Below the pieces are notes generated by a model. The model searched no databases, had not been told where the DNA came from, and saw nothing but the letters and a program-made list of their open reading frames with translations. From a virus, in IMG/VR virus record IMGVR_UViG_3300048837_000126, positions 1 to 43,258 of that record: 43,258 nt of DNA. The stretch is one strand, 5' to 3'. Positions 2,270-39,127 of this stretch are shown in pieces. The position numbers were made by a program, and so were the translations under genes. Position 1 is the first letter of the stretch; every line of letters begins with the position of its first letter.

Positions 2270-2589
2270 TGAGCAACGTGCACCCGATCTCTCAGGAGAA
2301 GAAGCCGGCCTACGACAAGCTGTTCCACAAGGTCGAAGGGCTCCAAGCTATCCTGCTTCGCGGCGGCATCTACAAGCAGGTCGATCTTTACCGGAAGTAT
2401 ATCGCCGACGATGACGAGCACCGCCTGTTCGCCAAGCACGGCGGCGGGTTCATCTCGCTCGGGGCGATGGTCGGCAACGTCGGGGGCACAAGCCACTACG
2501 GCACGTCCTGGCTGGAGATCGAAGCCGACGACGGCGCTGTCCTGTGCAAGGGCAAGCTCGGGCGACCCTGCTTCGACCCGAAGGCTTGA
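2266..2589 (+). CDS. Hypothetical protein, 107 aa
   Basis: I do not recognise a family. The ATG at 2266 (a second ATG follows at 2269) overlaps the TGA of the preceding gene, with GGAG at 2257-2260 as ribosome site; an upstream GTG at 2260 is less likely. The protein is soluble, mixed charge, with a Gly-rich middle (HGGGFISLGAMVGNVGG) and no signal peptide or membrane segment. It is the last gene before the first operator-promoter (2572-2606), so the polymerase transcript probably runs through it. Confidence 0.65.
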   Translation: MMSNVHPISQEKKPAYDKLFHKVEGLQAILLRGGIYKQVDLYRKYIADDDEHRLFAKHGGGFISLGAMVGNVGGTSHYGTSWLEIEADDGAVLCKGKLGRPCFDPKA

Positions 2590-2614
2590 CGCATAGAAAG
2601 CTATGCAATAGGGT
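2572..2614 (+). promoter_or_regulatory. Early promoter with palindromic operator, copy 1
   Basis: TTCGAC (2572-2577), 16-bp spacer, TAGAAA (2594-2599). The palindrome GCATA-GAAAGC-TATGC occupies 2591-2606 and covers the -10 box. An alternative reading is TTGACG (2586-2591), 17 bp, TAGGGT (2609-2614). Same architecture as copies at 2920, 34689 and 39092. Confidence 0.6.
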
Positions 2615-2646
2615 CCGTCTAGTCGAACGTGCTAGGACGGACCCTA
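2609..2646 (+). promoter_or_regulatory. Leader hairpin over the ribosome site of the zinc-ribbon gene
   Basis: AGGGTCCGTC (2610-2619) pairs perfectly with GACGGACCCT (2636-2645), and TAG (2620-2622) pairs with CTA (2632-2634) across a one-base bulge. The loop is 2623-2631. The right arm contains the likely Shine-Dalgarno AGGACGG and abuts the ATG at 2646, so the folded leader would hide the start. There is no T-run, so a terminator is unlikely. Confidence 0.5.
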
Positions 2647-2936
2647 TGGCTCGCAAGTGCTGCAACTGCGGAACGCTCATCAACAAGACGGACTGGCGCG
2701 CCAGGTTCTGCGGAACCCGCTGCAAGCGCGAGTTCAACAACCGGCAAGCCACCCGAGGCGCAACCGCCTACCCGTTCATCATGGCCATGCGCTACGACCG
2801 CAGCGAGGCGGCGAAGCACAAGGCATGGGGCACGCTGTGCCAGCTTGCCGCGCAGTGGCGTGACGAGGACAAAGCCGAGCGCGAGGGCCGGCGATCCTGG
2901 CACAGGCTCCCGGTGGTCCTTGACCAGCTTCCGTGA
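2646..2936 (+). CDS. Zinc-ribbon small protein
   Basis: A 96-aa protein whose N-terminus carries CxxC (CCNCG, residues 5-9) and a second pair FCGTRCKREFNNR (about 23-35), the pattern of a small zinc ribbon found in many phage early proteins. The rest is basic and helical. It is the first gene after operator-promoter copy 1, and its ribosome site is inside a strong leader hairpin, so both transcription and translation may be controlled. A DNA- or RNA-binding regulatory role is plausible but not shown. The ATG at 2646 is preferred over upstream in-frame codons because those lie upstream of the promoter. Confidence 0.75.
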   Translation: MARKCCNCGTLINKTDWRARFCGTRCKREFNNRQATRGATAYPFIMAMRYDRSEAAKHKAWGTLCQLAAQWRDEDKAEREGRRSWHRLPVVLDQLP

Positions 2937-2955
2937 AACGCATAGAAATGTATGC
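2920..2955 (+). promoter_or_regulatory. Early promoter with palindromic operator, copy 2
   Basis: TTGACC (2920-2925), 17-bp spacer, TAGAAA (2943-2948); palindrome GCATA-GAAATG-TATGC at 2940-2955 overlies the -10. The -35 lies inside the end of the zinc-ribbon gene. It drives the winged-helix gene at 2972. Confidence 0.7.
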
Positions 2956-2971
2956 GGACAAGGAGAACCCT

Positions 2972-3217
2972 ATGCGTCACAAGACCTACATGGACCTGGC
3001 CGGCAAGATGAAGGCCGAGCCTCGCGACTTCCCCCTTGACGAGATTTACCGGATCGTGTGCCGCCCGCCGCACACGGACGGTCTGTCCACAGACCAGCTT
3101 CACAGCCGCTGCTCCCGTGCTATCGGTGAGGCGCGGGCGGCGCTGAAGAAGGAGGGCTACATCCTTGAGCTTGGCGGCATGCGCCACAGTTATCGGGCCT
3201 CCAAGCGCAAGCGGTGA
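2972..3217 (+). CDS. Winged-helix-like DNA-binding protein (putative)
   Basis: An 81-aa basic protein. Residues about 18-75 (DEIYRIVCRPP, then SRCSRAIGEARAALKKEGY, then GMRHSYR) look like a three-helix plus wing arrangement in which a basic helix is followed by a G-x-x-x-x-Y-R wing; this is a familiar layout of small phage DNA-binding proteins. The ATG at 2972 follows AAGGAG and lies downstream of the promoter at 2920; the in-frame upstream extension would overlap the promoter. Being directly under one of the four operator-promoters, it is a candidate for the protein that binds GCATA-N6-TATGC, but this is inference. Confidence 0.65.
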   Translation: MRHKTYMDLAGKMKAEPRDFPLDEIYRIVCRPPHTDGLSTDQLHSRCSRAIGEARAALKKEGYILELGGMRHSYRASKRKR

Positions 3218-3223
3218 TCGTTG

Positions 3224-5275
3224 ATGACTATCCTCGAAGCAGCGCTGGAGTGGGCGGCGCGCGGGTTCCGCGTGTTCCCGATCCTGCCCGGCGACAAGGT
3301 TCCTCCCAAGGACTTGCGCTGGAAGGAGGAGGCCACCACTGACCCGGCGAAGATCACCGCCTGGTGGACCTTCGAGCCCCGCTACAACTACGGCGTGGCG
3401 GCCGGCGAGGGCACGCTGATCCTCGACGTGGACGCCAGCAAGAACGGCTATGCCGCTCTGCTCGACATCGACCTGCCCCCGACGCTGACGGTCAAGACCC
3501 CCGGCGGTGGCGAGCACCAGTATTTCAGCGGCCCCGATGTCGCAAACTCGGTGGACCGCATCGCGCCAGGTTTGGACATCCGCTCGGCCGGCGGCTACGT
3601 CATCGGCCCCGGCTCGTTCTTCGCCGACCCCGGCGGCAAGAAGGGCTACACCGGCTCCTACCACATTACGAACGACATCCCGCCAGCGGCTGCGCCCGAG
3701 CACTTCGTCCTCGTCGCCGGCACGCCCAAGGAGCGCGAGACCGGCGCGGCCGTCAGCATCGACGATCCCGACGACATCGTGTTCGCGATCCACTACCTCC
3801 AGAAGGACGCGCCGCTCGCGGTCGAGGGCCGAGGCGGCGACAGCACCACCTACGCGGTCGCGGCGCGTGTCGTCGAGATCGGCGTCTCGGCCGAGCGCGC
3901 GGCCGACCTGATGGCCGAGCACTGGAACGAGCGATGCCTGCCGCCCTGGACCAAGGAAGAACTGCTGGTCAAGGCGACGAACGCGCAGAACTATCTCCAG
4001 ACCCGCCAGGGCTCGGGCGGCGTCGCTGCCGCTGCGGCCGACTGGCAAGGCGCGGTGGTGCTGCCGCCCGCCCCGCCGCCTTCCTCGGTCGGGAAGTTCG
4101 GCAAGGTCTTCGCGATCCGCACGCTGACACCGATCGAAGCGATCCCGCCGCGCGACTGGGTCATGCACCGCCTGCTCATGCGGGGCGAGGGCTCGCTGCT
4201 CGCCGGCCCCGGCGGCGTGGGCAAGTCCGGTATCTCGCTGGCACTGGCCGCTCACGGCGCGCTCGGCCGCAGCTTCGCCGGGTTCGCCGTGCCGAAGCCG
4301 TTCAAGACCATCGTGTATAACCTGGAGGACACGCGGCACGAGATGGAAGCCCGCCTCTACGCGGTGTGCGCGGTCTACGACCTGGACCCCCGCGAGGTGG
4401 AGAAGCACGTCCTGCTCTGGCCCGGCCGGGAGATGCGCTTCCGCCTGATGAACCGGGATCACACCTTCGCCATGGCCGACTGCCAAGAGGTGGCGCGCCT
4501 GATGCGGGGCGAGGGCTTCGACGCTATCGTGCTCGACCCGCTGATCTCGCTGCACCACGAGGAGGAGAACGACAACGCGGCGATGGGCGATGTGATGGAC
4601 GCCTTCAACGGGCTGTGCCGCCTCGCCAACGCCGCCGGGCTCGCGCTGCACCACACCCCCAAGGGCGTCCGCAGCGCCGGCTCCAGCGACGCCGTGCGCG
4701 GCGCAGGCAACATCGTCAACGCCGTCCGTATCGCCAGCACCATCTACGCGGCCGACGAGGCTGACGCCGCGCTCTACGGGTTCTCTGAAGGCTACAAGGC
4801 GCGCTACGTCCGCATCGACGACGCGAAGCAGAACCACGCCGCGCTGGAGACGAAGCCCCTGTGGCTGGAGAAGCAGGGCTTCCCGCTGCCCAACGGCGAC
4901 ACGAGCTACGCGATGCGGATGATGGAACCTTCGGCCACCATGGCAGGCGAGGCGAAGTTCATCGCGACGATCCTGGCGGATCACATGAACCGGGCCGGCT
5001 CGATCCATCTCGCGACTTACGACGCGGCGCGCGTGCTCACCTCGGCCGACAACTACTTCAGGGACAAGGTGCCGGCGTCCGGTGATCTGCGGCAGATCAA
5101 GGCGCTTATCGAACTGCGGCTGTCACAGGCGGTGCAGACCGATGCCGGCGAGATCATCCGCGTCGTGCCGAAGACCGAGCCCGGCGCGGCCACGTCGCGG
5201 ATGTTCGTCGAGCTATCCGACGCGCCAAGGCCACAGCCCGCAGAGCCGAGTGCCGTAGATGAGTGGGGCGGTTAA
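3224..5275 (+). CDS. Primase-polymerase / replicative helicase fusion
   Basis: A 683-aa two-domain replication protein. Residues 1-170 match the bifunctional primase-polymerase (Prim-Pol) fold: AARGFRVFP, the metal-binding LDVD (67-70), KTPGGGEHQYF (His about 98) and GLDIRSAGGYVIGPGS. Residues about 310-560 are a RepA/AAA_25 helicase: Walker A GPGGVGKS (about 328-335), Walker B IVLDPLISLH (Asp about 438), LALHHTPKG and a conserved RGAGNIVNAVR. It should prime and unwind DNA at the fork for the family A polymerase. The ATG at 3224 is preferred to a TTG at 3221. The gene is the last of the + strand unit, and its TAA shares bases with the stop of the converging late unit. Confidence 0.93.
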   Translation: MTILEAALEWAARGFRVFPILPGDKVPPKDLRWKEEATTDPAKITAWWTFEPRYNYGVAAGEGTLILDVDASKNGYAALLDIDLPPTLTVKTPGGGEHQYFSGPDVANSVDRIAPGLDIRSAGGYVIGPGSFFADPGGKKGYTGSYHITNDIPPAAAPEHFVLVAGTPKERETGAAVSIDDPDDIVFAIHYLQKDAPLAVEGRGGDSTTYAVAARVVEIGVSAERAADLMAEHWNERCLPPWTKEELLVKATNAQNYLQTRQGSGGVAAAAADWQGAVVLPPAPPPSSVGKFGKVFAIRTLTPIEAIPPRDWVMHRLLMRGEGSLLAGPGGVGKSGISLALAAHGALGRSFAGFAVPKPFKTIVYNLEDTRHEMEARLYAVCAVYDLDPREVEKHVLLWPGREMRFRLMNRDHTFAMADCQEVARLMRGEGFDAIVLDPLISLHHEEENDNAAMGDVMDAFNGLCRLANAAGLALHHTPKGVRSAGSSDAVRGAGNIVNAVRIASTIYAADEADAALYGFSEGYKARYVRIDDAKQNHAALETKPLWLEKQGFPLPNGDTSYAMRMMEPSATMAGEAKFIATILADHMNRAGSIHLATYDAARVLTSADNYFRDKVPASGDLRQIKALIELRLSQAVQTDAGEIIRVVPKTEPGAATSRMFVELSDAPRPQPAEPSAVDEWGG

Positions 5276-5595
5276 GCCTGCTTGACCCACACCTGCCCGC
5301 CCCGAGGGACGATAGCGTGGGCGATGGTGCCGACGATGTTGACCAATCGGCCACTGTGGGGCGGCGGGTTGTCGGCTTCGCCGGTCTGCTGCGCCGAGCG
5401 CGGGGGCATAATGGCGAACCGGAAAGCCGCCGCGTCGGACGAGATCGCGAGGCGAGCACCGCCGCTCGGGGCGAGACCGTTCAGCGCGGTCACGCGGGTC
5501 CAGGCTGCGGGCTCGGCCAAGGTGGTCGTGCCAAGCTGCGTGCCGGCGGCCGTGGCCGGGCCGTCAGACTTGTTGATCGTAGCGGTGATGGTCAT
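5272..5595 (-). CDS. Small virion-associated or tail-like protein (unknown)
   Basis: A 107-aa protein with Ala/Thr/Gly-rich beta-type sequence (SDGPATAAGTQLGTTTLAEP) and the ending GGQVWVKQA, resembling small structural proteins that form beta-sandwiches. No membrane segment or enzyme motif. It is the last gene of the late unit; its start overlaps the previous stop (ATGA at 5595-5592) and its TAA (5274-5272) overlaps the opposing primase-helicase TAA. A role in the virion is inferred from composition and operon only. Confidence 0.65.
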   Translation of the reverse strand: MTITATINKSDGPATAAGTQLGTTTLAEPAAWTRVTALNGLAPSGGARLAISSDAAAFRFAIMPPRSAQQTGEADNPPPHSGRLVNIVGTIAHAIVPRGGQVWVKQA

Positions 5596-6005
5596 GGTGC
5601 CCCCTGTTGGCGTGGCTGGCGCGACGCGCCGTTGTTCTCCAGCGTAGCACGGAACCAGGCCAAGGTCTCACGGATCGCGGATAGCTGTGCCAGCACCTCG
5701 CCGTTGGTCTTGGACTGGAGAAGCGCTTGCTCGTTGGCGACACGACGGACTTCCTGCAAGCCGTCAATCGTGTTGTTCAGCCGGACGCCGTAGTTGGCGT
5801 CGTTCAGGATAAGCTGGTTCCCGACCGCCTCGGCCTTTTCGAGCCGGTTCTCCAGCGCCGTGTCCTTCTTTTCCGTGGCGTCAACGCGATGGGACATGAC
5901 CGCATAGTTCATCGCCGTCGCGACGATGACGGTGATGATCGTATAAGCGTTGAAGTCCCAGCGGATCGTCGGCATCTGCACGGCACGGCCCTCCTTGTCG
6001 GTCAT
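5592..6005 (-). CDS. Membrane-anchored coiled-coil protein, candidate holin
   Basis: A 137-aa protein with one membrane helix near the N-terminus (YTIITVIVATAMNYAVM, about residues 19-35) followed by a charged heptad-like region (about 45-110). The ATG at 6005 overlaps the o-spanin stop (ATGA); a start at 6029 is possible but less well placed. Its position after endolysin and spanins makes a holin or a lysis regulator the best guess, since no other holin is seen nearby. Many holins are shorter, and the coiled coil could instead mark a virion-assembly factor. Confidence 0.6.
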   Translation of the reverse strand: MTDKEGRAVQMPTIRWDFNAYTIITVIVATAMNYAVMSHRVDATEKKDTALENRLEKAEAVGNQLILNDANYGVRLNNTIDGLQEVRRVANEQALLQSKTNGEVLAQLSAIRETLAWFRATLENNGASRQPRQQGAP

Positions 6006-6214
6006 GGCGCGATCCGTGGACGCCGCCATGCGCAGGCAGACACCCCGCGCTCAACCGTCTCATCCGCCCACTGCTGCGAGTAGCGGTCGGCCCCCTTTAC
6101 CTCGCGGCTAGGGGCTTGGAAGACGAGGCATGACGCATCGCCCTTCGGACTGCATCCACTTGCCCCCAACGCTGTAACAGTCAGCAACGTTCCGAGCAGC
6201 ACGACCCGCATCAT
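6002..6214 (-). CDS. Outer-membrane spanin lipoprotein (Rz1-like)
   Basis: A 70-aa protein starting MMRVVLLGTLLTVTAL and continuing into a lipobox LGASGC, the cleavage and lipidation signal (Cys about residue 21). The mature part is short and polar with two Cys. It overlaps the 3' end of the inner-membrane spanin in another frame (6108-6214 shared), the classic Rz/Rz1 arrangement. It should be anchored in the outer membrane, bind the inner-membrane partner and drive membrane fusion at the last step of lysis. The stop overlaps the next gene (ATGA). Confidence 0.82.
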   Translation of the reverse strand: MMRVVLLGTLLTVTALGASGCSPKGDASCLVFQAPSREVKGADRYSQQWADETVERGVSACAWRRPRIAP

Positions 6215-6374
6215 TTGCCCGCTCCTGGTTCTGCCGCTCGATCTGATCGCGGACGCGCTGTTCGACGTGGCTGGTATAGGCTGATAGCGCGAACCATACA
6301 CAAACCGCCCCGGCCACGGCAATAAGGATCGTGCGGCCGATGACGGTCGAAAACAGAAGGGCGATGAAGTTCAC
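6108..6374 (-). CDS. Inner-membrane spanin (Rz-like)
   Basis: An 88-aa protein with an N-terminal membrane anchor (GRTILIAVAGAVCVWFAL, about residues 13-30) and a periplasmic helical part (HVEQRVRDQIERQNQERAND). It begins with GTG whose GTGA overlaps the endolysin stop. Together with the embedded lipoprotein gene it forms a two-component spanin. It is shorter than lambda Rz, so the periplasmic arm is brief; the lipoprotein gene extends past its stop. Confidence 0.82.
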   Translation of the reverse strand: MNFIALLFSTVIGRTILIAVAGAVCVWFALSAYTSHVEQRVRDQIERQNQERANDAGRAARNVADCYSVGGKWMQSEGRCVMPRLPSP

Positions 6375-7171
6375 TGCTGCAACTCCACAGGCTTGGCGCG
6401 CTTCCAGAGCAGGAAGCCCGCCGCGACAGCGAGCAGCGCCAGGACGACGAGGAACGTGGGGTCAGTCAGCACGTCCTTGTAGTCCCGCCAGAACCCGGCG
6501 AGCGGACCGAGGACGGCAATGCCGCCGCCGACCGTGATAGCCCCGCCGACCTGCTGTTCGGTGCTCACCGTCTTCTCGACTGGCGGGGCCGGAACAGCCT
6601 TGGCCGTGCCACCCACCGGGATGTCATGCGCGGGAGGCGGCGGGGCCGGCTGGCGAGCAGCCATGGCGAGCGCCTTCTTGCGCACGTCATTGACGCGGTT
6701 CGTCCACCCCGTGCCGAACTCCTTCCACTGATCCGCGCCAAGACCCTTCAGGAAGGCCATGCGCCGGTCGTAGAGTTCGTTGATGATCTCACGCGGGTCG
6801 TGCGACACCAGGGCCTTAAGCGTCTCCTCGCCGATCCAGCCGTCCGCCTTGACCCCGAGGATCGCCTGAAGCGCCACGGCCGAGCGCTTCGGCCCGCTGT
6901 TCACGCCCCAGTCGTAGACCATGAGATCGACACCGTTGGGCAGCGCGTCACCGGACACACGATCCCAGTAGTTCTTCTTGTAGATCGCGAGCGCGGTTGC
7001 CTTGTCGAGGCTCCTGATCTCGTTGGCCGACGCGGGCCGACCAAGCCACGCGGATAGCGTAGCCTGCGTGATGCCCCACATGGTCTTGCCGCCGCGATCC
7101 TTGGCATTGTCGGACCAGCCACCCTCCCACGCTCCCGTGATCGCGTGGCACCTCTCGAAGTCGTTCAGCAC
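6371..7171 (-). CDS. Endolysin, GH108-type muramidase with C-terminal membrane anchor
   Basis: A 266-aa protein. Residues about 5-90 match the glycosyl hydrolase 108 N-acetylmuramidase family, with the catalytic E-G-G at 16-18 (AWEGGWSDN) and GGKTMWGIT. Residues about 95-175 resemble the peptidoglycan-binding domain usually fused to it (LGVKADGWIGEETL). A Pro/Ala-rich linker follows, then a hydrophobic helix FLVVLALLAVAAGFLLW near the C-terminus. The start is GTG at 7171, since GAGGAGG sits just upstream; an ATG at 7255 would overlap the preceding gene. The terminal membrane helix is unusual for this family and may tether the enzyme to the inner membrane until holin action. Confidence 0.88.
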   Translation of the reverse strand: MLNDFERCHAITGAWEGGWSDNAKDRGGKTMWGITQATLSAWLGRPASANEIRSLDKATALAIYKKNYWDRVSGDALPNGVDLMVYDWGVNSGPKRSAVALQAILGVKADGWIGEETLKALVSHDPREIINELYDRRMAFLKGLGADQWKEFGTGWTNRVNDVRKKALAMAARQPAPPPPAHDIPVGGTAKAVPAPPVEKTVSTEQQVGGAITVGGGIAVLGPLAGFWRDYKDVLTDPTFLVVLALLAVAAGFLLWKRAKPVELQQ

Positions 7172-7181
7172 GGCGGCCTCC

Positions 7182-7829
7182 TCAGTTGAGCTTGAACGCT
7201 TGGATGCCGCCCTGTCCAGGGCCGACGATGAGCGCTTGATTTCCAGAGCCGTCAATAGCGGGGTCGGACGAACGGCAGCGAAGATTGTTATAGAGCCGGA
7301 CGGCAGTGATGTTCGACCCGAAGGTTATCAGACTGGTCCGCGTCCAGTCAAAATAGTGTTCACGGGTCTGGCGCACGTTCCGGCCAACGGCATAAGGCCC
7401 GATGGACATATGTCCGGTGGCGTCGTGCGCCAGCGCGCCAAGCGACGTGGTGTAGGAGAGCCACGGCAAGCACTCGACATTGAAGTCCCAGTCGGACCTG
7501 ACCTGCCCCTGGCCGACCACGAGATACTTGTCGCCGGTTTTCACGTTCGCCAGGTCGATGTGGTGCACAGCCCGCCAGAACGACTGGAGCGGCTGGCCGA
7601 TGGGGACGTTCGTGAAGTTGTCCACGAAGTTGCTGAAGGGGGTCGGCCGCGCCGCCACGCCGTTCGCGGTGGTTTGAGCCGTTCCGGCCGCTGCGTTCGC
7701 GGCGGCAGCGGCTGCGGCTGCGGCGGCGACACCACCGTCCAGGACAAGGTCGTGAGCTTCGAGCGCGTCTACGCGCACAGTCAGCGTGCCGGCTGCGGCT
7801 GTCGCGGCAAGGTCTCGGGCGCGTCCCAT
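7182..7829 (-). CDS. Tail fibre-associated / receptor-binding protein (putative)
   Basis: A 215-aa protein. The N-terminus (residues 1-60) has an Ala-rich run and a trimer-like stretch typical of fibre attachment segments; the remainder is rich in aromatic residues (SFWRAVHHIDL, REHYFDWTRTSLI) as expected of a beta-structured tip. It starts one base after the fibre gene stop and precedes the endolysin. A role as a second fibre, a fibre tip or a chaperone is inferred from this position and composition; I do not recognise a specific family. Confidence 0.6.
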   Translation of the reverse strand: MGRARDLAATAAAGTLTVRVDALEAHDLVLDGGVAAAAAAAAAANAAAGTAQTTANGVAARPTPFSNFVDNFTNVPIGQPLQSFWRAVHHIDLANVKTGDKYLVVGQGQVRSDWDFNVECLPWLSYTTSLGALAHDATGHMSIGPYAVGRNVRQTREHYFDWTRTSLITFGSNITAVRLYNNLRCRSSDPAIDGSGNQALIVGPGQGGIQAFKLN

Positions 7830-17369: not shown

Positions 17370-17797
17370 CACGTCACCTTCGCGTAGAGCACGTAGTCCC
17401 GGCCGTTGTAGAACTTGCGCATGAGCCCTTCCGATTTGAACCCGAGCATCTTGAGCCACTGATGCCCGTTGACGTGGTTCCGTTCAGCATAGGCTTCCAT
17501 GCGCGGGAACTCAACGGTCATCTCGGCCACCTCGCGCTTCACCTCTTTCGTCATCGCACGGAGCGCCGGGCCGCAGTCCGCGCCGAGGTAGCCCCACAAA
17601 ATCGTCCGGCCGGGCCAGACCGGCGTGTGACCGCCTATCGCGACCACACGTCCGTCTAGTCGGACAGCCCAGGCTGGCCCAGTTCTGATGAGCGCAAACA
17701 GGTTATCCGAAGATAGGGGAGCCTGCCCCGCCTGCCCCTGGTGCGGCTCCAGTTGAAGCGCCATCGACGGCCGGACATCGCGAGTGAACTCAATCAT
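17369..17797 (-). CDS. GNAT-like virion protein (gp13-like)
   Basis: A 142-aa protein. The C-terminal half (MEAYAERNHVNGHQWLKML followed by GFKSEGLMRKFYNGRDYVLY) is the acetyl-CoA-fold C-terminus of the GNAT family, and the mid region VRLDGRVVAIGGHTP is its beta4. Podoviruses of this type carry such a protein between tail tube B and the internal core proteins, where T7 has gp13. Whether it acetylates anything is unknown; it may be a structural relic of the fold. The ATG at 17797 overlaps the tail tube B gene by eight bases. Confidence 0.75.
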   Translation of the reverse strand: MIEFTRDVRPSMALQLEPHQGQAGQAPLSSDNLFALIRTGPAWAVRLDGRVVAIGGHTPVWPGRTILWGYLGADCGPALRAMTKEVKREVAEMTVEFPRMEAYAERNHVNGHQWLKMLGFKSEGLMRKFYNGRDYVLYAKVT

Positions 17798-24050: not shown

Positions 24051-24971
24051 TCATCCCACCCTGTAAGCAATGCACGGCATAGTCGAGCCGCTGTTATCCG
24101 CGCCTGTACCAAATGACGACGGCATGGTGCCAAAGGTGTGCGATGATGTGCGTCTAAAATGATTTGCTGCCCACGATGCTGGAGAGACCGCGTCAGTTAG
24201 CGTACCTCCGACAAGAATGTTATTCTCAGGAGCTGTGTTTTGCAAAGGGATCATCATGAGGGCAGCGTCAGCAACCATAGCGAACCAATAAATGCCGGGA
24301 GATACACTAAGTGGGCTGCCGAGTGCTCCGGCGATATCAGCCACTGTAGTCGCCGCAACAGCGATAGACCCGGTTTCAGCCAGCAGTGTGTCAGGGCGTT
24401 TAGTCGTAGATCCCTGAGAATAGATGCCGAAGCGAATATTCCCGGCAGGCGTAGTGCTACCGCTCCTTCCGCCCAGCGCATCGATAGTAATCGCTTCTCT
24501 AATCTCAACAGGAGAAGCCCACAAAACGTTAGCGCTCGCCGCCTGAGCGCCGCCGGAGGGAACGCGAGAAGCACTTCCAAGATAATACTTTCCCGTTACA
24601 TGAAAACTGAGAGACGACCCACCGCCGCCGCCCGTCGCGCCGATGGTAATCTTATCGCCAGCGTCATCAACTGTGATGCTGATGCCGGTCCCCGCGACGA
24701 GCGCAGTTCCCAGCGCATCGCGAGCCCGCTCATCGATAGCCGCGTCCGAAAGACCCGCGATGGCGATCGTATCGCCCGCATCGTCGACGGTGACCGTGAT
24801 GTTCGTCCCCGCCACCAGCGCCGCGCCGATGGTATCGCGGATCAGCTCCTTGATGGCGGCGACCTGATAGACCTTCGGGGCGGCGTCGCCCTGGCTTTCG
24901 GCCCCGAACAGGAAACCCGTGTCGGAGATGGAGGCGGCAGGTGTTGCTGCTTTGAGATCGATATTGGCCAT
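24051..24971 (-). CDS. Adhesin-like / head-fibre structural protein (putative)
   Basis: A 306-aa protein. Residues about 52-75 and 93-115 are two near-identical repeats (ALVAGTNITVTVDDAGDTI and ALVAGTGISITVDDAGDKI), a beta repeat often found in tail or head fibres, followed by a Gly run and a C-terminal domain (about 125-306) with the look of a carbohydrate-binding or adhesin tip. That C-terminal part (24051 to about 24600) is visibly less GC-rich than its neighbours, suggesting that the tip was acquired separately. It lies in the head module, not with the main fibre. Start ATG 24971 follows the previous TAG by two bases. Confidence 0.65.
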   Translation of the reverse strand: MANIDLKAATPAASISDTGFLFGAESQGDAAPKVYQVAAIKELIRDTIGAALVAGTNITVTVDDAGDTIAIAGLSDAAIDERARDALGTALVAGTGISITVDDAGDKITIGATGGGGGSSLSFHVTGKYYLGSASRVPSGGAQAASANVLWASPVEIREAITIDALGGRSGSTTPAGNIRFGIYSQGSTTKRPDTLLAETGSIAVAATTVADIAGALGSPLSVSPGIYWFAMVADAALMMIPLQNTAPENNILVGGTLTDAVSPASWAANHFRRTSSHTFGTMPSSFGTGADNSGSTMPCIAYRVG

Positions 24972-32297: not shown

Positions 32298-32320
32298 GCG
32301 GTTAGGTGGCTCGCTGAAGT

Positions 32321-32561: not shown

Positions 32562-32562
32562 C

Positions 32563-32591
32563 TTGCCTTATACGGGAATTGGATGCTAAAC
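32563..32591 (+). promoter_or_regulatory. Candidate promoter of the early unit
   Basis: TTGCCT (32563-32568), 17-bp spacer, CTAAAC (32586-32591), 55 bases before the first early gene. Match to consensus is moderate only. Confidence 0.4.
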
Positions 32592-32625
32592 CGACCTACC
32601 ATAACGGCTACGTCTAATACCTAGG

Positions 32626-32637
32626 GAAACAGGAGTT
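32626..32637 (+). promoter_or_regulatory. Leader box with ribosome site, copy 1
   Basis: GAAACAGGAGTT, followed by AGCAGCAC and the ATG at 32646. The AGGAG is the Shine-Dalgarno. The same box precedes the genes at 33282 and 33661, and it resembles the iteron core with continuing GTTAGCAG. Confidence 0.6.
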
Positions 32638-32645
32638 AGCAGCAC

Positions 32646-33197
32646 ATGCCCGCATTCAAGCCCGCTCATGAGTTAGCAGACATCCCCGCTCGCGTGCTCG
32701 ACCTATTCACAGTCGAGAATGGCGAATTGCATTGGTCTCCGGTTTGTCCCGCGTCATGGCGCGGCATGGTGCGTGCGCCATGGGGCTCGCGAGCCGGCGG
32801 CAAGCCAGTGTATGGGCGCGGCCGTCTTATCAACGCCAAGCGGATGAACCTGCTAACTGTCGATGTCGCCTACGCGCTGGAGCACGGTGGCGAATGGCCA
32901 TGGCAAATCAACGCCGGGCTTATCCCCGCCGATGCGCGCGACCTGGACAACGCGAACCACTGGCGCGACCTGATCCGCGCGCGGTTCGCTTTGGACGGCG
33001 AAGCGCTGACCTGGCGCGTTGATCGCGGGTTCAATGCCGATAGGACCGTGCGCTATCCGGCCGGCTCGCGCGTCGGCGGCTTGGCCATGTCAGGCTTTCG
33101 CGAGCCAATCGTCGCGACTGGCGGCATGACGTTTCTCGCATCGGACGTGCGCGCCGTGCTGCAAACCGGCTGCTTCCCGTGGAATGAGTGGAATTGA
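32646..33197 (+). CDS. HNH-related DNA-binding protein with duplicated domain, probably non-catalytic
   Basis: A 183-aa protein. Residues about 15-80 (LDLFTVENGELHWSP up to ALEHGGEWPW) look like the DNA-recognition segment that precedes HNH motifs in phage endonucleases, which has L-x-Y-x-x-x-x-G-x-L-x-W and ends in G-x-W-P. DARDLDNANHWRDL (about 96-109) resembles the D-x-x-x-D-N-R-x-x-N-L part of an HNH but the leading D-H is missing. Residues 110-180 repeat the first pattern (FALDGEALTWRVDRG up to TGCFPW). So it is a duplication with the nuclease lost. First gene of the early unit; it could bind DNA as a regulator. Family assignment is by eye. Confidence 0.6.
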   Translation: MPAFKPAHELADIPARVLDLFTVENGELHWSPVCPASWRGMVRAPWGSRAGGKPVYGRGRLINAKRMNLLTVDVAYALEHGGEWPWQINAGLIPADARDLDNANHWRDLIRARFALDGEALTWRVDRGFNADRTVRYPAGSRVGGLAMSGFREPIVATGGMTFLASDVRAVLQTGCFPWNEWN

Positions 33198-33198
33198 A

Positions 33199-33209
33199 AA
33201 CTTTTGTTC
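33199..33209 (-). repeat. Inverted copy of the GAACAAAAGTT box
   Basis: The + strand reads AACTTTTGTTC, the exact reverse complement of the core at 31973. It lies ten bases before the TTGACA promoter of the next gene. Confidence 0.6.
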
Positions 33210-33218
33210 GCAACCCGC

Positions 33219-33247
33219 TTGACACGCGGTTCGCCTAGGCTTAGGTA
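33219..33247 (+). promoter_or_regulatory. Early promoter before the 102-aa gene
   Basis: TTGACA (33219-33224; CTTGACA), 17-bp spacer, TAGGTA (33242-33247), 35 bases before the ATG at 33282. Confidence 0.6.
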
Positions 33248-33263
33248 TAGGACATCAACCACG

Positions 33264-33275
33264 CAAACAGGAGTT
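33264..33275 (+). promoter_or_regulatory. Leader box with ribosome site, copy 2
   Basis: CAAACAGGAGTT before the ATG at 33282; see the copies at 32626 and 33643. Confidence 0.55.
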
Positions 33276-33281
33276 CACGAC

Positions 33282-33590
33282 ATGCCCGGCCACAGCTACC
33301 ACGTCGAATGGACTGACACTTTCGCGGGCGAAGCCAACTATTCATGGGTTCGCCGCGCTGACATCACCGTGCCTGAGCTTGTGCATTACGGTTACACGGG
33401 CTCGACCGATGGCTCTTATCGCGCCGCGTGCAAGCGGCAACAGCGCGAGATCATGCGCAAAGCCAAGGCGGCCATTGGCATCACGGGCCTTCGCGGCGTC
33501 ACTGAAGACACGGGCGAAGGCTTCACGTTCCGGCCGTATCGCATGTGCTGCATTCTGTTTGTCACATGGCAGGATCAGCCGGAAGCCTGA
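33282..33590 (+). CDS. Small early protein, 102 aa, conserved type
   Basis: Begins with YHVEWTDTFAGEANYSWVRR, a sequence type I recall from small proteins on alphaproteobacterial plasmids and phages, followed by a basic helix (RAACKRQQREIMRKAKAAIG) and a beta end (GFTFRPYRMCCILFVTW). Function unknown. It has its own TTGACA promoter and the leader box CAAACAGGAGTT. The ATG at 33282 is downstream of the promoter, so in-frame codons further upstream are excluded. The stop is followed by a trailer shared with two other early genes. Confidence 0.7.
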   Translation: MPGHSYHVEWTDTFAGEANYSWVRRADITVPELVHYGYTGSTDGSYRAACKRQQREIMRKAKAAIGITGLRGVTEDTGEGFTFRPYRMCCILFVTWQDQPEA

Positions 33591-33640
33591 CGTTTCGACC
33601 TTGCCGCCCTTTGGGGCGGTAATCCGAAGCGCCACGCTTC
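33588..33640 (+). repeat. Shared intergenic trailer, copy 1
   Basis: TGACGTTTCGACCTTGCCG, hairpin CCGCCC/GGGCGG (33604-33619), then AGCGCCACGCTTCAGC. Homologous modules lie at about 34108-34170 and 34648-34692. Confidence 0.55.
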
Positions 33641-33642
33641 AG

Positions 33643-33654
33643 CAAACAGGAGTT
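33643..33654 (+). promoter_or_regulatory. Leader box with ribosome site, copy 3
   Basis: CAAACAGGAGTT, then GGCACC and the ATG at 33661. Confidence 0.55.
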
Positions 33655-33660
33655 GGCACC

Positions 33661-34104
33661 ATGTCGAAAACCTTTGACGCGCACCTAGCCGCCATCCGGT
33701 CAGGCGAGATCACGAAAACAAATGTTATCGGGCTGCGGAAGGCCCTGACCGCGCTGAACAAGCGCGAAGCGGGCTGGAGTGTCAGCCGCACGCAAGTCAA
33801 GGTCACGGCGCGCGATCTCGACACCGCATGCGATGAACTCGACCGGGTCAAGCCGCGCGTGGTCGGCGAGCTTCACGACACAGGGCTAGCGCAGCTTCAG
33901 GCGAAGCGCTACCGCCGGCAGCTTGCGAGCGTTGCCGAGATCGTCGCGGGCATCGCATCATTCCACCTTGTCGGCTTTGAGCTAGTCGGAAGCCGGCAGC
34001 TATACGCCACGCCGCTTTACGAGGCCCGCGACGCGGAAGGCCGCGCGTTCCGGTTCATCAACATCCCGTGGCAGAACGGCGGCAACGGCCCTGAGATCGT
34101 CTAG
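33661..34104 (+). CDS. Hypothetical early protein, 147 aa
   Basis: No family recognised. N-terminal helical part (LAAIRSGEITKTNVIGLRKAL) and a central SRTQVKVTARDLDTACDELD, C-terminal YATPLYEARDAEGRAF then RFINIPWQNGG. The ATG at 33661 has AGGAG at 33648-33652 in the shared leader box; the frame is open further upstream but that part would overlap the previous gene. Soluble, slightly basic. The short repeated-helix N-terminus may bind nucleic acid; no direct support. Confidence 0.65.
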   Translation: MSKTFDAHLAAIRSGEITKTNVIGLRKALTALNKREAGWSVSRTQVKVTARDLDTACDELDRVKPRVVGELHDTGLAQLQAKRYRRQLASVAEIVAGIASFHLVGFELVGSRQLYATPLYEARDAEGRAFRFINIPWQNGGNGPEIV

Positions 34105-34107
34105 GCG

Positions 34108-34170
34108 TGACGTTCCCGCCTTGCCGGTCCAGATCGGGCCGGCAATGGGGAGCGCCTTGCTCCAGCACAT
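34108..34170 (+). repeat. Shared intergenic trailer, copy 2
   Basis: TGACGTTCCCGCC, then a 7-bp perfect stem TTGCCGG (34121-34127) with CCGGCAA (34139-34145), then GGGGAGCGCCTTGCTCCAGC. Aligns with the modules at 33588 and 34648. Confidence 0.55.
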
Positions 34171-34194
34171 CAACCGGAAAAGGGAAAGCGGCTC

Positions 34195-34356
34195 ATGTTG
34201 ATCGGACCCGCCAGATTTATCGAATGCGTCATCCTCGCGGCGCTCGTGGCTTGCATCACGCTTGTCGCGGCGCGGATCGACATGCGCGACCAGGCCATGA
34301 CGACCTGCCTGGAGCGCCACAGCTTCGACACCTGCCATTCTGCACTCAACCGTTAA
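34195..34356 (+). CDS. Small membrane protein with Cys-containing tail, 53 aa
   Basis: One N-terminal hydrophobic helix (ECVILAALVACITLVAA) followed by a polar tail with TCLERHSFDTCHSALNR. The pattern C-x-x-x-x-S-x-D-T-C-x-x-x-L-N-R is one I recall from short proteins of plasmids and phages in alphaproteobacteria. AGGGAAAG lies ahead of the ATG. Probably an inner-membrane peptide with the paired Cys in the periplasm; role unknown. Confidence 0.6.
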   Translation: MLIGPARFIECVILAALVACITLVAARIDMRDQAMTTCLERHSFDTCHSALNR

Positions 34357-34366
34357 GGAGCCCGAC

Positions 34367-34648
34367 ATGGACTTTCGCACTCACACCGGCGAGATTGTAA
34401 CGGGAGATCGGCTGCAAGCCGCGCTGTCAAAAGTCGCTGACGACTGGCGTAACTTGGCTCGCGCGATCCGCAAAGAGGACCGTTACGCTCCGCACGTTAC
34501 GGACGCCACAAAAGAGCAGGCGATGCTGGACATGCTCTCCCGCGCTGACGAAATCGAAGCCGGTGATGTCCGCAGTTTAACCATATGGCAGCGCGTCGAC
34601 ACGGAGCTAACCGGCGAGTGCGTAGCCTTGCTACCTGCACGACGCTGA
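34367..34648 (+). CDS. Hypothetical early protein, 93 aa
   Basis: A soluble helical protein (RLQAALSKVADDWRNLARAI, then TKEQAMLDMLSRADEIEAGD). AAGGAG precedes the ATG ten bases after the previous stop. No recognisable motif. It is the last gene of the small-cassette block before operator-promoter copy 3, and is followed by a third copy of the trailer. Confidence 0.6.
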   Translation: MDFRTHTGEIVTGDRLQAALSKVADDWRNLARAIRKEDRYAPHVTDATKEQAMLDMLSRADEIEAGDVRSLTIWQRVDTELTGECVALLPARR

Positions 34649-34688
34649 CACCCTGCCGCTCTCGGGCGGCAGTAGTGAGCGCCAGTGC
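34648..34688 (+). repeat. Shared intergenic trailer, copy 3
   Basis: TGACACCCTGCCGC with a 7-bp perfect stem CTGCCGC (34653-34659)/GCGGCAG (34666-34672), then TAGTGAGCGCCAGTGCTT, which runs into the CTTGACC of the next promoter. Confidence 0.5.
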
Positions 34689-34724
34689 TTGACCCGGCCC
34701 GATAAAACGCATAACAATCTATGC
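34689..34724 (+). promoter_or_regulatory. Early promoter with palindromic operator, copy 3
   Basis: TTGACC (34689-34694), 17-bp spacer, TAACAA (34712-34717); palindrome GCATA-ACAATC-TATGC at 34709-34724. Drives the 360-aa HTH protein and probably the RusA-helicase block. Confidence 0.7.
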
Positions 34725-34745
34725 GAGATCAACCGGAGACAATCC

Positions 34746-35828
34746 ATGTTCAGCTTCAAGGAAACCGCCGAGAAGGCCGCAGCCGAGTTCGGGCTGTCGA
34801 TGAAGGACGACCCGACCTTGTGGCCCGAGGGCTCGACCCCGACGCTCGCGGTCGTGACGAAGGCGTGCAACGACACCGCCATCGAATGCGCCCGGTCGGC
34901 CATGTCGCGCGGGCTCGGCAAGATCGCCGAGACGGTCGCGACCGAGTTCGATGTCGCAATCGCCGAGGACGGCCCGCTGGCCGACTTGGAGACCGTCCTG
35001 AACGAGCACCTATACGACGGGCCGGACATCGACCTGTCGGCCGTCCTGGCGGCTCCTGACTGGCAGGCCCGCGTCGAGGCGACCCGTGAAGCCTTCGGCG
35101 TCGCGGTCCAGAGCTACGACGTGCCGGCGCGCTCGGCCGAGGAAGTGGCCCTCTATGTCGAACTCGACCCGCGCCTGTCGAAGCTCGGGATCGTGTCCGG
35201 CAGCAAGCCCGACGTGCCGCAGTCGCTGCTCGTGAACCAGGGCGGCGACGAATGGGACGAGCCGGACGCCGAGGTGAAAGACGAGCCCGACGCGGTCGAT
35301 CCGTGGGCCGACGAACAGGCTGACAAACTGGACCGCATCGTCAACCCCGGCGGTGTCCTGCCCCCGGCTCGCGAGCGCGGCAAGCCGTCGCCGGGCAAGG
35401 CCCGCCGGACCAAGGCCGAGATCGCCGAGGACGAGGCGGCTGACCGCGCTGACCAGGCTGCGGCGTTCAAGGACGCCGTCGAAGGTCCGGCCGAGGCCGA
35501 GACTACCGCCTGGGATGACGAGCCCGCCAGCGAGGCCCCTGCGCCTGCCCTGGACGCCGGCTGGGATGATGCCGAGCCGGCCGCGACCGCTGCAAACCTG
35601 CCGGGGCTCGCGAGCGCGGCCGGGATCGCTGATGGCGAGATGGCGGCCCTGCTCGGCATGTCCAAGGGCTACTACTCGCAGGTCCGCAACGGCAAGCGCC
35701 CGTGGCCCGGCCTGAAGCCCGATCAGGTGCAGCGCCTGCGTGCTGAACTCGCGGGCCGCCGGGAAGCCATCGACGCCGTCGAGGCCGCCCTGTCCACCGC
35801 CGATGTCCTGAAGCCCGAAGGCGCGTAA
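34746..35828 (+). CDS. Acidic protein with C-terminal helix-turn-helix, 360 aa
   Basis: N-terminal 150 residues are helical and acidic with no known domain (FKETAEKAAAEFGLSMKDDP). Residues 170-290 are a low-complexity acidic/Ala linker with repeated W-D-D-E patches. The C-terminal 70 residues carry an XRE-like HTH: GEMAALLGMSKGYYSQVRNG, then KRPWPGLKPDQVQRL. It can therefore be a DNA-binding regulator or a replication-related organiser. It is the first gene under operator-promoter copy 3, hence a candidate autoregulator of the GCATA-N6-TATGC sites. ATG 34746 follows CGGAG; the earlier in-frame codons overlap the promoter. Its stop overlaps the RusA start (TAATG). Confidence 0.7.
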   Translation: MFSFKETAEKAAAEFGLSMKDDPTLWPEGSTPTLAVVTKACNDTAIECARSAMSRGLGKIAETVATEFDVAIAEDGPLADLETVLNEHLYDGPDIDLSAVLAAPDWQARVEATREAFGVAVQSYDVPARSAEEVALYVELDPRLSKLGIVSGSKPDVPQSLLVNQGGDEWDEPDAEVKDEPDAVDPWADEQADKLDRIVNPGGVLPPARERGKPSPGKARRTKAEIAEDEAADRADQAAAFKDAVEGPAEAETTAWDDEPASEAPAPALDAGWDDAEPAATAANLPGLASAAGIADGEMAALLGMSKGYYSQVRNGKRPWPGLKPDQVQRLRAELAGRREAIDAVEAALSTADVLKPEGA

Positions 35829-36259
35829 TGCGTGAGCGGGCGAGCCTCGTCTCGGTGAACCTGCCTCTCCCGCCGTCCGTGAACGATGCGTTCGCGGCTC
35901 GGCGGGGGAGCCACCTGACCATGAAGACAGCGAAGTACCGCTTTTGGGAGCGGGAAGTGCTGGAGGAACACGGATACGGCCAATACCTGCCGGTGCTCGA
36001 AGCCGGTAGCTATGGGCTGTGGCTCGACCTGAACCCCAAGATGCGCGGCGACATCGACAATCGGATCAAGCTCGTCTCTGACGTGCTGAAGGGTCCGACC
36101 AAGACGAGCCCCAACGCGCTCGGGATCGTGGTCGATGATGGGCACATGAAGGGGCTCCACGTCGAGTTTCTACCGGGCCTCGCGGAACAGAGGTGCAGTG
36201 TCACCGTCGTGAGTCTGGCGATCTGGCCGAGCTACGTTTGCATGAGGATGGAACCGTGA
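35828..36259 (+). CDS. rusA: RusA-type Holliday junction resolvase
   Basis: A 143-aa protein matching the RusA family: N-terminal VNLPLPPSVNDAF, then the catalytic acidic cluster RGDIDNRIKLVSDVLKG and a second pair GIVVDDGHMKGLHVEF. RusA cuts four-way junctions symmetrically as a dimer; it would resolve intermediates of phage recombination or branched replication before packaging. The C-terminus is slightly extended (SLAIWPSYVCMRMEP). ATG overlaps the preceding TAA. Part of the recombination set with DUF2800 nuclease and SNF2 helicase. Confidence 0.9.
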   Translation: MRERASLVSVNLPLPPSVNDAFAARRGSHLTMKTAKYRFWEREVLEEHGYGQYLPVLEAGSYGLWLDLNPKMRGDIDNRIKLVSDVLKGPTKTSPNALGIVVDDGHMKGLHVEFLPGLAEQRCSVTVVSLAIWPSYVCMRMEP

Positions 36260-36477
36260 TTACGAAGCAGGAAATCAAGAACCTGCTGGGGCGCGTGCAG
36301 ACCATGGCGCAGCGCCGGGGCTTGACCAGCGTGCACGCCTACCGCACCTGCACACGACACCTGGAGACGGCCCTGTGGTGCAGGCAGGAAGCCCGGCTGG
36401 CCGGTGTCCGGCACGCCCACACTCACTTCCAGTTCCTGAAGGCGGCTGCGGCCGAGAAAGCTGCCCGTCGTGGTTAA
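36256..36477 (+). CDS. Small basic helical protein, 73 aa
   Basis: Starts at GTG 36256 (GTGA overlap with RusA stop; GAGGATGGA upstream). Sequence MITKQEIKNLLGRVQTMAQR followed by a basic helical stretch (RTCTRHLETALWCRQEARLAG). No family recognised; charge and size suggest a nucleic-acid-binding accessory protein, or a regulator of the following helicase or resolvase. Longer starts overlap RusA heavily. Confidence 0.6.
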   Translation: MITKQEIKNLLGRVQTMAQRRGLTSVHAYRTCTRHLETALWCRQEARLAGVRHAHTHFQFLKAAAAEKAARRG

Positions 36478-36976
36478 GGTCAGGCGGATCAGGATCGAAG
36501 GCGACACGGCCTTCGTGCCTCTGACAATGGGCAAAGAAGCGGTAATAGACGCCGCTGATGTGCCTCTTGTGGCGGGGCGAAACTGGTGTGCCGAGAAGGC
36601 TACGGACACGTTTTACGCAGTTAGGACACAGAAGGTCGGCGGCAAAGACCGACACTTCAGGCTGCACCGCGTCCTAACGGGCGCTACGGGCAGAGATCAC
36701 GTTGACCACATCGATGGAGACGGCCTGAATTGCCGAAGGTCCAACATGCGCCTGGCTACGCACACCGAGAACATGCGGAACTCTCGACGCCGCAGAGATA
36801 ACTCCAGCGGCGTAAAGGGCGTTACCTTCGACAAGTGGACCGGCCGCTGGCAGGCCAAGATAAGCGTAGACGGCCGGACTGTTCATCTCGGGCGGTTTAG
36901 TAGCATCGAAGCCGCCGCAGAGGCGTATCGCAAAGGCTCAGAAAAGTACCATGGCGAATTTGGACGGTTCGGCTGA
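36470..36976 (+). CDS. HNH homing endonuclease with AP2 domain
   Basis: A 168-aa protein. HNH core: HRVLTGATGRDHVDHIDGDG (D-H about residues 79-80) followed by NCRRSNMRLATHTENMRNS, and C-terminal AP2-type DNA-binding domain SSGVKGVTFDKWTGRWQAKI, then GRTVHLGRFSSIEAAAEAYR. It starts with GTG inside the end of the previous gene. The base composition is visibly lower in GC than the neighbours, as expected for a mobile insertion. It probably spreads as a freestanding homing gene between RusA block and helicase. No intron is visible. Confidence 0.9.
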   Translation: MVKVRRIRIEGDTAFVPLTMGKEAVIDAADVPLVAGRNWCAEKATDTFYAVRTQKVGGKDRHFRLHRVLTGATGRDHVDHIDGDGLNCRRSNMRLATHTENMRNSRRRRDNSSGVKGVTFDKWTGRWQAKISVDGRTVHLGRFSSIEAAAEAYRKGSEKYHGEFGRFG

Positions 36977-36977
36977 C

Positions 36978-38348
36978 ATGCAACTTGAACAGTACCAACT
37001 AGAGGGAGCGGCTTTCCTGGCTGCCAGCTACAGGGCGTCTATTTTTGACGAGCCGGGTCTCGGAAAAACGGGACAAGCTATCCGCGCATGCGAACTGGTC
37101 AACGCCGAGCGCACCATCGTCATCTGTCCGGCCGGCGTCCGACAGGTCTGGCCCTACCAGTTCAAGCTGTGGGGCCGCAAGAACCCGCGCGTCGTGAAGG
37201 CCGACAGCATCTTCGATCTCGTGGCCTGGCAAAAGGGCCGGGTTGATGTCCTGGTGATGAGCTTCGAGCAGGCGACCCAGTGGTGGCGCGACATCGCGAG
37301 CGACTTCTTCGACTGCCTCATCATCGACGAGAGCCACTATCTGAAGAACCCCGACGCCAAGCGGACCAAGGCCATCGTCGGGGATCGCGGCGACGGGATC
37401 GGGGCCATCGCTGGCATGGCGAGCTATGTCTGGTGCCTGACCGGGACGCCGATCAAGAACGACCCCGCTGACCTGTGGGTTCCGCTCCGTCTCGCGGGTC
37501 AGACCAAGCTCGACTTCACCGCGTTCCAGAAGCGGTTCTTCAAGCAGCGCATCGGCACCTTCTCCGTGGCCAATTCCGTGCGCAAGGAAGCCCTGCCCGA
37601 GCTACAGGCCATGCTCCGCGACATGTCGCTGATGCGGACCTTCGCCGACGTTGGCAGCACGCTCCCGCCAATCCGACTAGACGTACTTCCGGTCGAGGGC
37701 GACAGCCGCGAGGTGGTCGAGTACCTGAAACAGTACCCCGGCCTGTCCGACCGCATTCTCCAGAGCATCGAAGCGGGAGGTGGCGCGCTGTCCTTCGACG
37801 ACAGCACGCACATCGCCACGCTGCGGGCTATGATCGCCGAGGCCAAGGCCCCCGGCTACGCCAGGCTCATCACCGAGGAATTGAAGTCGGGCACCATCGA
37901 CAAGCTCGTGGTCATGGGCCACCACCGCCGGGGCTTGCAGATCGTCACCGAGCACCTGAACAGCCACGGCATCCGCGCCGAGATGATCGTCGGCGGGACA
38001 TCCGAGCGCCAGCGCGAGGACACCGTGCGATCGTTCCAGGACGATCCGAAAGGCGTCCGCGTGATCTGCGGCAACATCACCGCCGCCGGCACGGGTCTCA
38101 CCATGACGGCCGCCTGCCGGCTCGACATGCTGGAGAGTTCGTGGACCCCGGCCGACAACGTCCAGGCCGTGCGCCGCATCCGCCGTAAGGGTCAGAACCG
38201 GCCGACCTTCGCCCGCTTCGTGATGCTGTCGAACAGCTTCGACGACGCGGTGGCGAACATCGTGACCCGCAAGGCCAACACCATCGTCTCGATCACCGAC
38301 AAGGACAACCTGCAAGAGGCCATGGCCCGAAAGGAGAACCACGCATGA
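36978..38348 (+). CDS. SNF2/DEAD-type helicase (annealing helicase-like)
   Basis: A 456-aa superfamily 2 ATPase. Walker A DEPGLGKT (about 24-31), Walker B DESH (117-120), GTPIKN (motif III), AAGTGLTMT (motif V) and RRIRRKGQ (motif VI) are present. The N-terminus QYQLEGAAFLAASYRASIFD is typical of small phage SNF2 proteins related to SMARCAL1-type annealing helicases; it would remodel forks or recombination intermediates. The ATG at 36978 lies one base after the HNH stop and is preferred to an ATG at 36951 inside it, because the HNH gene was probably inserted next to an existing start. The stop overlaps the next gene (ATGA). Confidence 0.9.
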   Translation: MQLEQYQLEGAAFLAASYRASIFDEPGLGKTGQAIRACELVNAERTIVICPAGVRQVWPYQFKLWGRKNPRVVKADSIFDLVAWQKGRVDVLVMSFEQATQWWRDIASDFFDCLIIDESHYLKNPDAKRTKAIVGDRGDGIGAIAGMASYVWCLTGTPIKNDPADLWVPLRLAGQTKLDFTAFQKRFFKQRIGTFSVANSVRKEALPELQAMLRDMSLMRTFADVGSTLPPIRLDVLPVEGDSREVVEYLKQYPGLSDRILQSIEAGGGALSFDDSTHIATLRAMIAEAKAPGYARLITEELKSGTIDKLVVMGHHRRGLQIVTEHLNSHGIRAEMIVGGTSERQREDTVRSFQDDPKGVRVICGNITAAGTGLTMTAACRLDMLESSWTPADNVQAVRRIRRKGQNRPTFARFVMLSNSFDDAVANIVTRKANTIVSITDKDNLQEAMARKENHA

Positions 38349-38806
38349 CCCCGATCCAGCCGTTCAACACTGCGCAGCTAGTGCTGCGGTACCGCATCGT
38401 GCCCAAGTTCCTGCCCCCGATAACGCAGGCGCTGCCGCCGACGACCTGGCTCCAGCGCCTCCTCTGGCGTCTCGCCGACCGGGCCGGGCTCCTGGTCCAC
38501 AACTACGTCCCGAAGACCGAGGTGGTTCAGACCAAGACCGTCGTGCTCGAAGGCACGGCGCAGGCGATTATCGCGAACGCAATCGTCGCCTTCATGAACG
38601 ACGACCAGCGGCTGAACCCACAGCGCGATCTCATCATCCTTTGGGGCGAGGAGAGCTTCGCGAATTTCGCCCGCGACGCCGTCGATCTGAAGTCCGACCT
38701 GGTCTTCGCCCGTGGCGGCGACGGCCACCGCGAGTATCGCGGGATCGTGGTGCGCGTCGTGAGCTACATCAACGGCCCCCTGGTCATCCGCCGTCGGGAT
38801 TTGTGA
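38345..38806 (+). CDS. Hypothetical early protein, 153 aa
   Basis: No family identified. N-terminal region is Pro-rich (VPKFLPPITQALPPTTW), the central TKTVVLEGTAQAIIANAIVA and the C-terminal EYRGIVVRVVSYINGPLVI look like an alpha/beta fold. It overlaps the helicase stop. It has no membrane segment. Co-expression with the helicase suggests a partner role in replication or recombination. Confidence 0.6.
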   Translation: MTPIQPFNTAQLVLRYRIVPKFLPPITQALPPTTWLQRLLWRLADRAGLLVHNYVPKTEVVQTKTVVLEGTAQAIIANAIVAFMNDDQRLNPQRDLIILWGEESFANFARDAVDLKSDLVFARGGDGHREYRGIVVRVVSYINGPLVIRRRDL

Positions 38807-38807
38807 C

Positions 38808-39077
38808 ATGCAGAAGGTCCAGAACTCGAAGCTGAAGGTCGAGCGCGACGAGGCCAAGCACGCTACCGTTCTGACCATCACGCTCGACGACCGCGATCTA
38901 AGCCGGCATCACCTGGTGCCGCCCGACACGGCCGCTCCCGTTGACGCGCTGGCGCAGTATGCGCTGCACTGCCTGCACGTCATGCACAGCCAGACCGTCG
39001 AGGAGAAGTACCGGCTCCTGCTGGCGGATCGGAACAACGGCTACCCCGAGGACTACAAGCCGGGGCGTTGGGGCTGA
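38808..39077 (+). CDS. Hypothetical early protein, 89 aa
   Basis: Starts one base after the preceding stop. Basic N-terminus (QKVQNSKLKVERDEAKHATV), a central YALHCLHVMHSQTVEEKYRL helix and a short Tyr/Pro-rich tail. No motif recognised. The last gene before operator-promoter copy 4. Confidence 0.6.
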   Translation: MQKVQNSKLKVERDEAKHATVLTITLDDRDLSRHHLVPPDTAAPVDALAQYALHCLHVMHSQTVEEKYRLLLADRNNGYPEDYKPGRWG

Positions 39078-39091
39078 TCGAACATTCCGGC

Positions 39092-39127
39092 TTGACGCGC
39101 CACGCCGGATTGCATAACTTCCTATGC
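39092..39127 (+). promoter_or_regulatory. Early promoter with palindromic operator, copy 4
   Basis: TTGACG (39092-39097), 17-bp spacer, TAACTT (39115-39120); palindrome GCATA-ACTTCC-TATGC at 39112-39127. Leads into the nuclease/SSB/polymerase block. Confidence 0.7.

Follow-up and report, generated by a model that had tools for sequence, protein, structure and literature searches.

In lambdoid phages of the 434 and P22 type, short palindromic operators overlap sigma-70 early promoters and are clustered between divergent promoters beside the repressor gene; the 434 operators have the form ACAA-N6-TTGT. In cluster A mycobacteriophages, a single type of site, the stoperator, is dispersed genome-wide and is read by one repressor (gp71 in L5). 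Cluster K mycobacteriophages carry the SAS/ESAS elements, repeats that lie before early genes and have an inverted-repeat companion.

Here we describe a palindrome, GCATA-N6-TATGC, in the early region of an uncultured phage (the window: the whole 43,258-nt stretch that was analyzed). Like the lambdoid operators it is short and overlaps sigma-70 early promoters (at one site, 2591, it lies in the spacer), its 5-6-5 geometry is near that of the 434 operator, and its reader is probably also a small helix-turn-helix (HTH) dimer with autoregulation. The arrangement differs, however, in that single sites lie over four early operons, and neither an integrase nor a CI-like S24 repressor was seen among the scanned genes. 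The scattering of one site type over a phage genome recalls the stoperators, but stoperators lack symmetry, occur in large numbers and mostly sit inside genes, aligned with transcription, whereas the four sites in the window are symmetric and all on early promoters. SAS/ESAS are likewise repeated elements preceding early genes; they are tied to translation starts, while the window element keeps to the -35/-10 spacing and stands at varying distances from the start codon. The mechanism class is classical; in the material searched there is no description of the operator, the regulon or the winged-helix family, and searches of a literature library found no report of such a regulon.

Palindromic sites and promoters of the early block

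The window begins and ends with a 128-bp direct repeat (1-128 and 43131-43258; one mismatch, at the second base), and the contig probably represents the whole genome, with a circular map of about 43.1 kb. The early block runs unbroken from 32.6 kb across the junction, which the PolA gene probably spans, to 5.3 kb. Replication genes encode PolA, PrimPol, an SNF2 helicase, an exonuclease and SSB, and the virion and lysis genes include T7-like internal virion and tail proteins, a terminase and an endolysin. Among the genes scanned, which include part of the small ORFs, we saw no phage RNA polymerase, sigma factor or integrase; the early promoters are probably read by the host polymerase. The nearest named terminases are those of the Rhizobium phages RHph_N2, RHEph18 and RHph_Y25 (59% identity over 69% of the protein), which together with the CTTGAC form of the -35 suggests an alphaproteobacterial host. 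The RHph_N2 record differs from the window in holding no exact GCATA-N6-TATGC, in having an integrase and in the annotation of its early region. An HNH-AP2 homing endonuclease-like gene (36470-36976) lies within the early replication block of the window.

Scanning the window gives four exact copies of the palindrome, starting at 2591, 2940, 34709 and 39112, against 0.013 expected per genome from base composition (65.5% G+C), and GCATA-N6-TATGC is the top over-represented palindrome with arms of 4-6 nt. All four are intergenic and within the plus-strand early block, in a window whose non-coding share is about 9% by rough gene calls. The first-pass annotation of this DNA had reported these four copies with identical 5-6-5 geometry, and each is exact at its coordinate. 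It had also seen none on the late strand; there is indeed no exact copy there, only a one-mismatch copy at 17487, which is inside late-gene sequence shared with the relative G002 and was not counted as a regulon site. Many copies inside genes had been named as the outcome that would speak against a regulon, and the genome scan places exact copies only at early-gene promoters. When up to two mismatches are allowed, the window holds 11 copies versus a shuffle mean of 6.6, which is not unusual, so the information lies in the exact form only. The extended motif is YGCATA-N6-TATGCR, the palindrome stands 16-39 nt from the ATG, and within a single genome the flanks differ among sites and the arms are invariant. 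The four promoters and the genes that they head, which are those named in the first-pass annotation, are as follows.

2586..2614 (+), zinc-ribbon promoter: -35 TTGACG at 2586-2591, 17-bp spacer, -10 TAGGGT at 2609-2614; operator 2591-2606 in the spacer; inferred start site
2646..2936 (+), zinc-ribbon protein, 96 aa: phrog_20494 (PHROG E 8e-24), weak DUF2116 treble clef; headed by the 2591 site
2920..2955 (+), winged-helix promoter: -35 TTGACC at 2920-2925, -10 TAGAAA at 2943-2948; operator 2940-2955
2972..3217 (+), orphan winged-helix protein, 81 aa: favored candidate regulator
34689..34724 (+), promoter of the XRE-HTH gene/RusA operon: -35 TTGACC at 34689-34694, -10 TAACAA at 34712-34717; operator 34709-34724
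34746..35828 (+), protein with a C-terminal XRE-type HTH, 360 aa: alternative candidate regulator
39092..39127 (+), 39163/exonuclease/SSB promoter: -35 TTGACG at 39092-39097, -10 TAACTT at 39115-39120; operator 39112-39127
39163..39606 (+), 39163 protein, 147 aa: first gene of an operon with a DUF2800/PD-(D/E)XK exonuclease and SSB

At 2940, 34709 and 39112, TTGAC begins exactly 20 nt 5' of the palindrome, the spacer is 17 bp and a TAnnnn -10 lies inside the palindrome. The predicted start coincides with the palindrome's right edge, and a bound protein would cover both the -10 and +1. These three sites bear out the earlier claims that the palindrome lies over the -10 box and that its distance from the -35 is fixed. 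Neither claim carries over to 2591, where the likely promoter puts the palindrome in the spacer and the TTCGAC 19 nt upstream had been misread as the -35; TTGACG(2586)-N17-TAGGGT(2609) fits better. The alphaproteobacterial sigma-70 consensus promoter is CTTGAC-N17-CTATAT (PMC2873474). Three window sites share its CTTGAC -35 and 17-bp spacing, but of its -10 the window promoters retain only TA, since this box forms part of the palindrome.

At 2608-2647 lies another inverted repeat, stronger than the first (ATAGGGTCCGTC...GACGGACCCTAT), with a folding energy of -29 kcal/mol (z -4). The proposed -10 and start codon of the zinc-ribbon gene fall within it, its arms are identical in the relatives G001 and G002, and it may serve either as an additional operator or as a hairpin acting on translation.

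Conservation and drift in related phages

Relatives were found in two independent ways, by protein search with PrimPol and by a promoter-operator DNA pattern, and both reach the same IMG/VR contigs. We catalogued 32 sites, four in the window and 28 in related contigs, some of which are closely related to one another, so the sites represent fewer independent events. In the 32-site alignment every arm position is invariant or altered in one site, the flanks are Y/R and the middle six positions vary, as for an operator bound by a dimer; TTGAC lies 20-21 nt upstream of the palindrome in 27 of the 32. The sites in relatives precede orthologs of 2972, 34746 and 39163 and a few accessory genes. For instance, the 2972 ortholog is preceded by a site in every genome that holds it (11/11, window included), and sites before the 34746 ortholog occur in G001, G002, G004, G005, G014 and G010. 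The most widely conserved target is 39163, whose homologs have sites across the close group and drifted sites in wider relatives. The operator-in-spacer layout of the zinc-ribbon promoter is common to G001 and G002, and the winged-helix (wHTH) promoter of G006 has the same layout (TTGACG-N17-TACGGT). In the wHTH promoter of G007, TTGAC is 17 nt upstream of the palindrome and a plausible -10 is TAACGT. G007 also has two operator-bearing promoters (14773 and 17954; L095) that head paralogs built of 11-residue repeats (ATGPAWKAYDE-like), genes found in G007 only among the relatives read.

The pattern has 67 matches in IMG/VR, where a rough estimate at an assumed collection size of about 40 Gb gives tens by chance. 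We did not take all 67 as regulon sites, since matches beyond the PrimPol group occur singly, are intragenic in most cases and come near the chance estimate in number. A lone site at 24286 in the PrimPol relative G020 lacks early-gene context and was left out of the count. These outside matches look random, as they would if the palindromes were chance repeats or small mobile-element copies without regulatory role. For the regulon sites themselves that explanation is hardly credible, given four copies observed versus 0.013 expected, flanks that differ within a genome around invariant arms, and retention before the same genes across diverged phages.

A PrimPol profile search recovered wider phages with about 27-46% identity. 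In distant relatives (about 31-37% PrimPol identity) the layout is kept and the operator has drifted, to GCATAAC-N2-GTTANNC or GTTTA-N6-TAAAC. The first form precedes the 39163-like gene in G058, G060 and G063, 20 nt after TTGAC, and in G059, 11 nt after it; a drifted copy also lies 5' of the wHTH gene in G059, G060 and G063 (weaker in G058), without TTGAC at the usual distance. In G012 and G013 the second form precedes the 39163-like gene, with TTGAC 21 nt upstream, and a near copy precedes the RusA gene. The sites 5' of the 39163-like gene in G045 and G047 are GCTTAACCCGTTACGC and GTATAACTTGTTATAC, respectively. Scanning with the drifted form gave two more contigs, L240 and L249, with a site before a 39163-like gene, one of which has a wHTH gene. 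The operators of the wider relatives are small samples and were recognized with the first motif already known; counting palindromes de novo did not by itself reveal an operator in G012, in G013 or in three named phages, and the G012 site was located via its promoter. The first-pass annotation had proposed an undescribed early regulon with a repressor operator, and both the orthologous sites and the drifted operators in distant phages back that proposal.

At G012:20166-20182 (L108) and G013:4553 an operator-like site abuts the RusA ATG, and the RusA transcript in these phages may be leaderless. Extra operator-like palindromes, with no TTGAC at the usual distance, occur at G063:18701 (L225), G059:3955 (L232) and G012:16941 (L107). 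They seem to lie close to where the early region begins on its upstream side, and no exact equivalent occurs in the window.

Candidate readers and alternative explanations

The 2972 product has no Pfam or PHROG family match and so falls outside the named wHTH families. No bacterial or prophage homolog was found in a scan of genome contigs, and neither 2972 nor 34746 has a tblastn match in the named phages at E 0.01. The AlphaFold2 model of 2972 (pLDDT 85) has the order H-b-H-H-b-b, a predicted winged-helix fold; a Foldseek search against the PDB gave no significant match, so DNA binding is predicted from fold topology. Helix 3 is nearly invariant in the 2972 family. In many wider relatives a short wHTH gene separates PolA from PrimPol, and hhalign aligns the profile of these genes to the 2972 family (probability 94.4%, E 8.9e-8); four of these remote homologs beside PrimPol keep a preceding site. 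In G012 no site lies directly 5' of either candidate regulator gene, and co-occurrence and covariation do not separate 2972 from 34746, because diverged counterparts of both are kept in most relatives. We put the case for the 81-aa winged-helix product as the repressor near even, and prefer it modestly over the 34746 product.

The chief competitor is the XRE-HTH product of 34746, a real if lesser possibility. Six of seven members of its family match HTH_3 (the window member weakly, E 0.04), and its C-terminal profile weakly matches C.BclI (0.008) and the 434 repressor (E 0.16-0.5). The fuller reading, in which 34746 reads the same operator as a 434-like dimer and 2972 is a mere target, such as a replication accessory protein, strikes us as rather unlikely. 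It draws on the C-terminal XRE/434-type HTH, on half-sites 11 bp apart with an unspecified center that resemble 434 operators, on the site before 34746 in close relatives and on XRE-bearing counterparts that persist in wider relatives, some at weak E-values. However, HTH positions aligned with the 434 contacts vary (SKG/SKP/SKS; Q/M/L) among phages that share the operator, and wider relatives have no site directly before the XRE gene.

The palindrome is always inside a promoter and at most sites its distance from the -35 is fixed, as might be expected of an activator site or of a promoter part for a phage-modified polymerase that turns early genes on. We consider this improbable. The overlap with the -10 and start is what repressor sites typically show, and the promoter phase relative to the palindrome shifts at 2591, G006 and G007, which favors occlusion, that is steric repression, over activation. 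Furthermore, MerR-type operators need a spacer of 19-20 bp, whereas the spacer here is 17 bp, with the operator inside it at 2591 and over the -10 at the other three sites, and the scanned genes showed neither a sigma factor nor an RNA polymerase. A host regulator could also read the sites, such that phage early genes obey a host signal, and the promoters are indeed host-type (CTTGAC-N17). That is very improbable, as the operator drifts with phage lineage while keeping its position and the regulated genes encode two predicted phage DNA-binding proteins. The best explanation is probably that the palindrome is the operator of a phage repressor that closes early promoters.

A proposed early-gene circuit

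The circuit that we propose builds on what the sequence shows, namely the sites and how enriched they are, their spacing from promoter elements, their conservation before orthologous genes and the drift of the operator; from these we infer binding, repression as the sign of regulation, timing and the identity of the regulator. On entry, the host RNA polymerase would transcribe the replication and regulator genes. YGCATA-N6-TATGCR would be the operator of a phage-encoded dimeric DNA-binding repressor, which would cover the -10 box and start site (the spacer at 2591) and shut the early promoters to the host polymerase. As the repressor builds up, the early operons would be turned down together. 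Two predicted DNA-binding proteins are among the products of the operon-heading genes, so the circuit is probably self-limiting, and given that no integrase was seen among the scanned genes, negative feedback on early genes is likelier than immunity. Most likely the regulon limits early expression through negative feedback.

More broadly, and only tentatively, we propose that one dispersed operator controls the host-transcribed early operons across a wide group of podophages, whose examined genes include no phage RNA polymerase. Its reader would be a new family of ~80-aa winged-helix proteins encoded beside PrimPol. The two would form a switch that holds the replication module under negative feedback, operator and reader having diverged together by lineage.

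These findings provide a testable circuit for uncultured phages, in which operator and promoters are defined and the repressor is narrowed to two candidates. The promoter-operator signature itself recovered further related contigs from metagenomes. Lastly, the drifted operators (GCATA-N6-TATGC, GCATAAC-N2-GTTANNC and GTTTA-N6-TAAAC) and their matching regulator homologs offer a natural experiment in the coevolution of a repressor and its operator.
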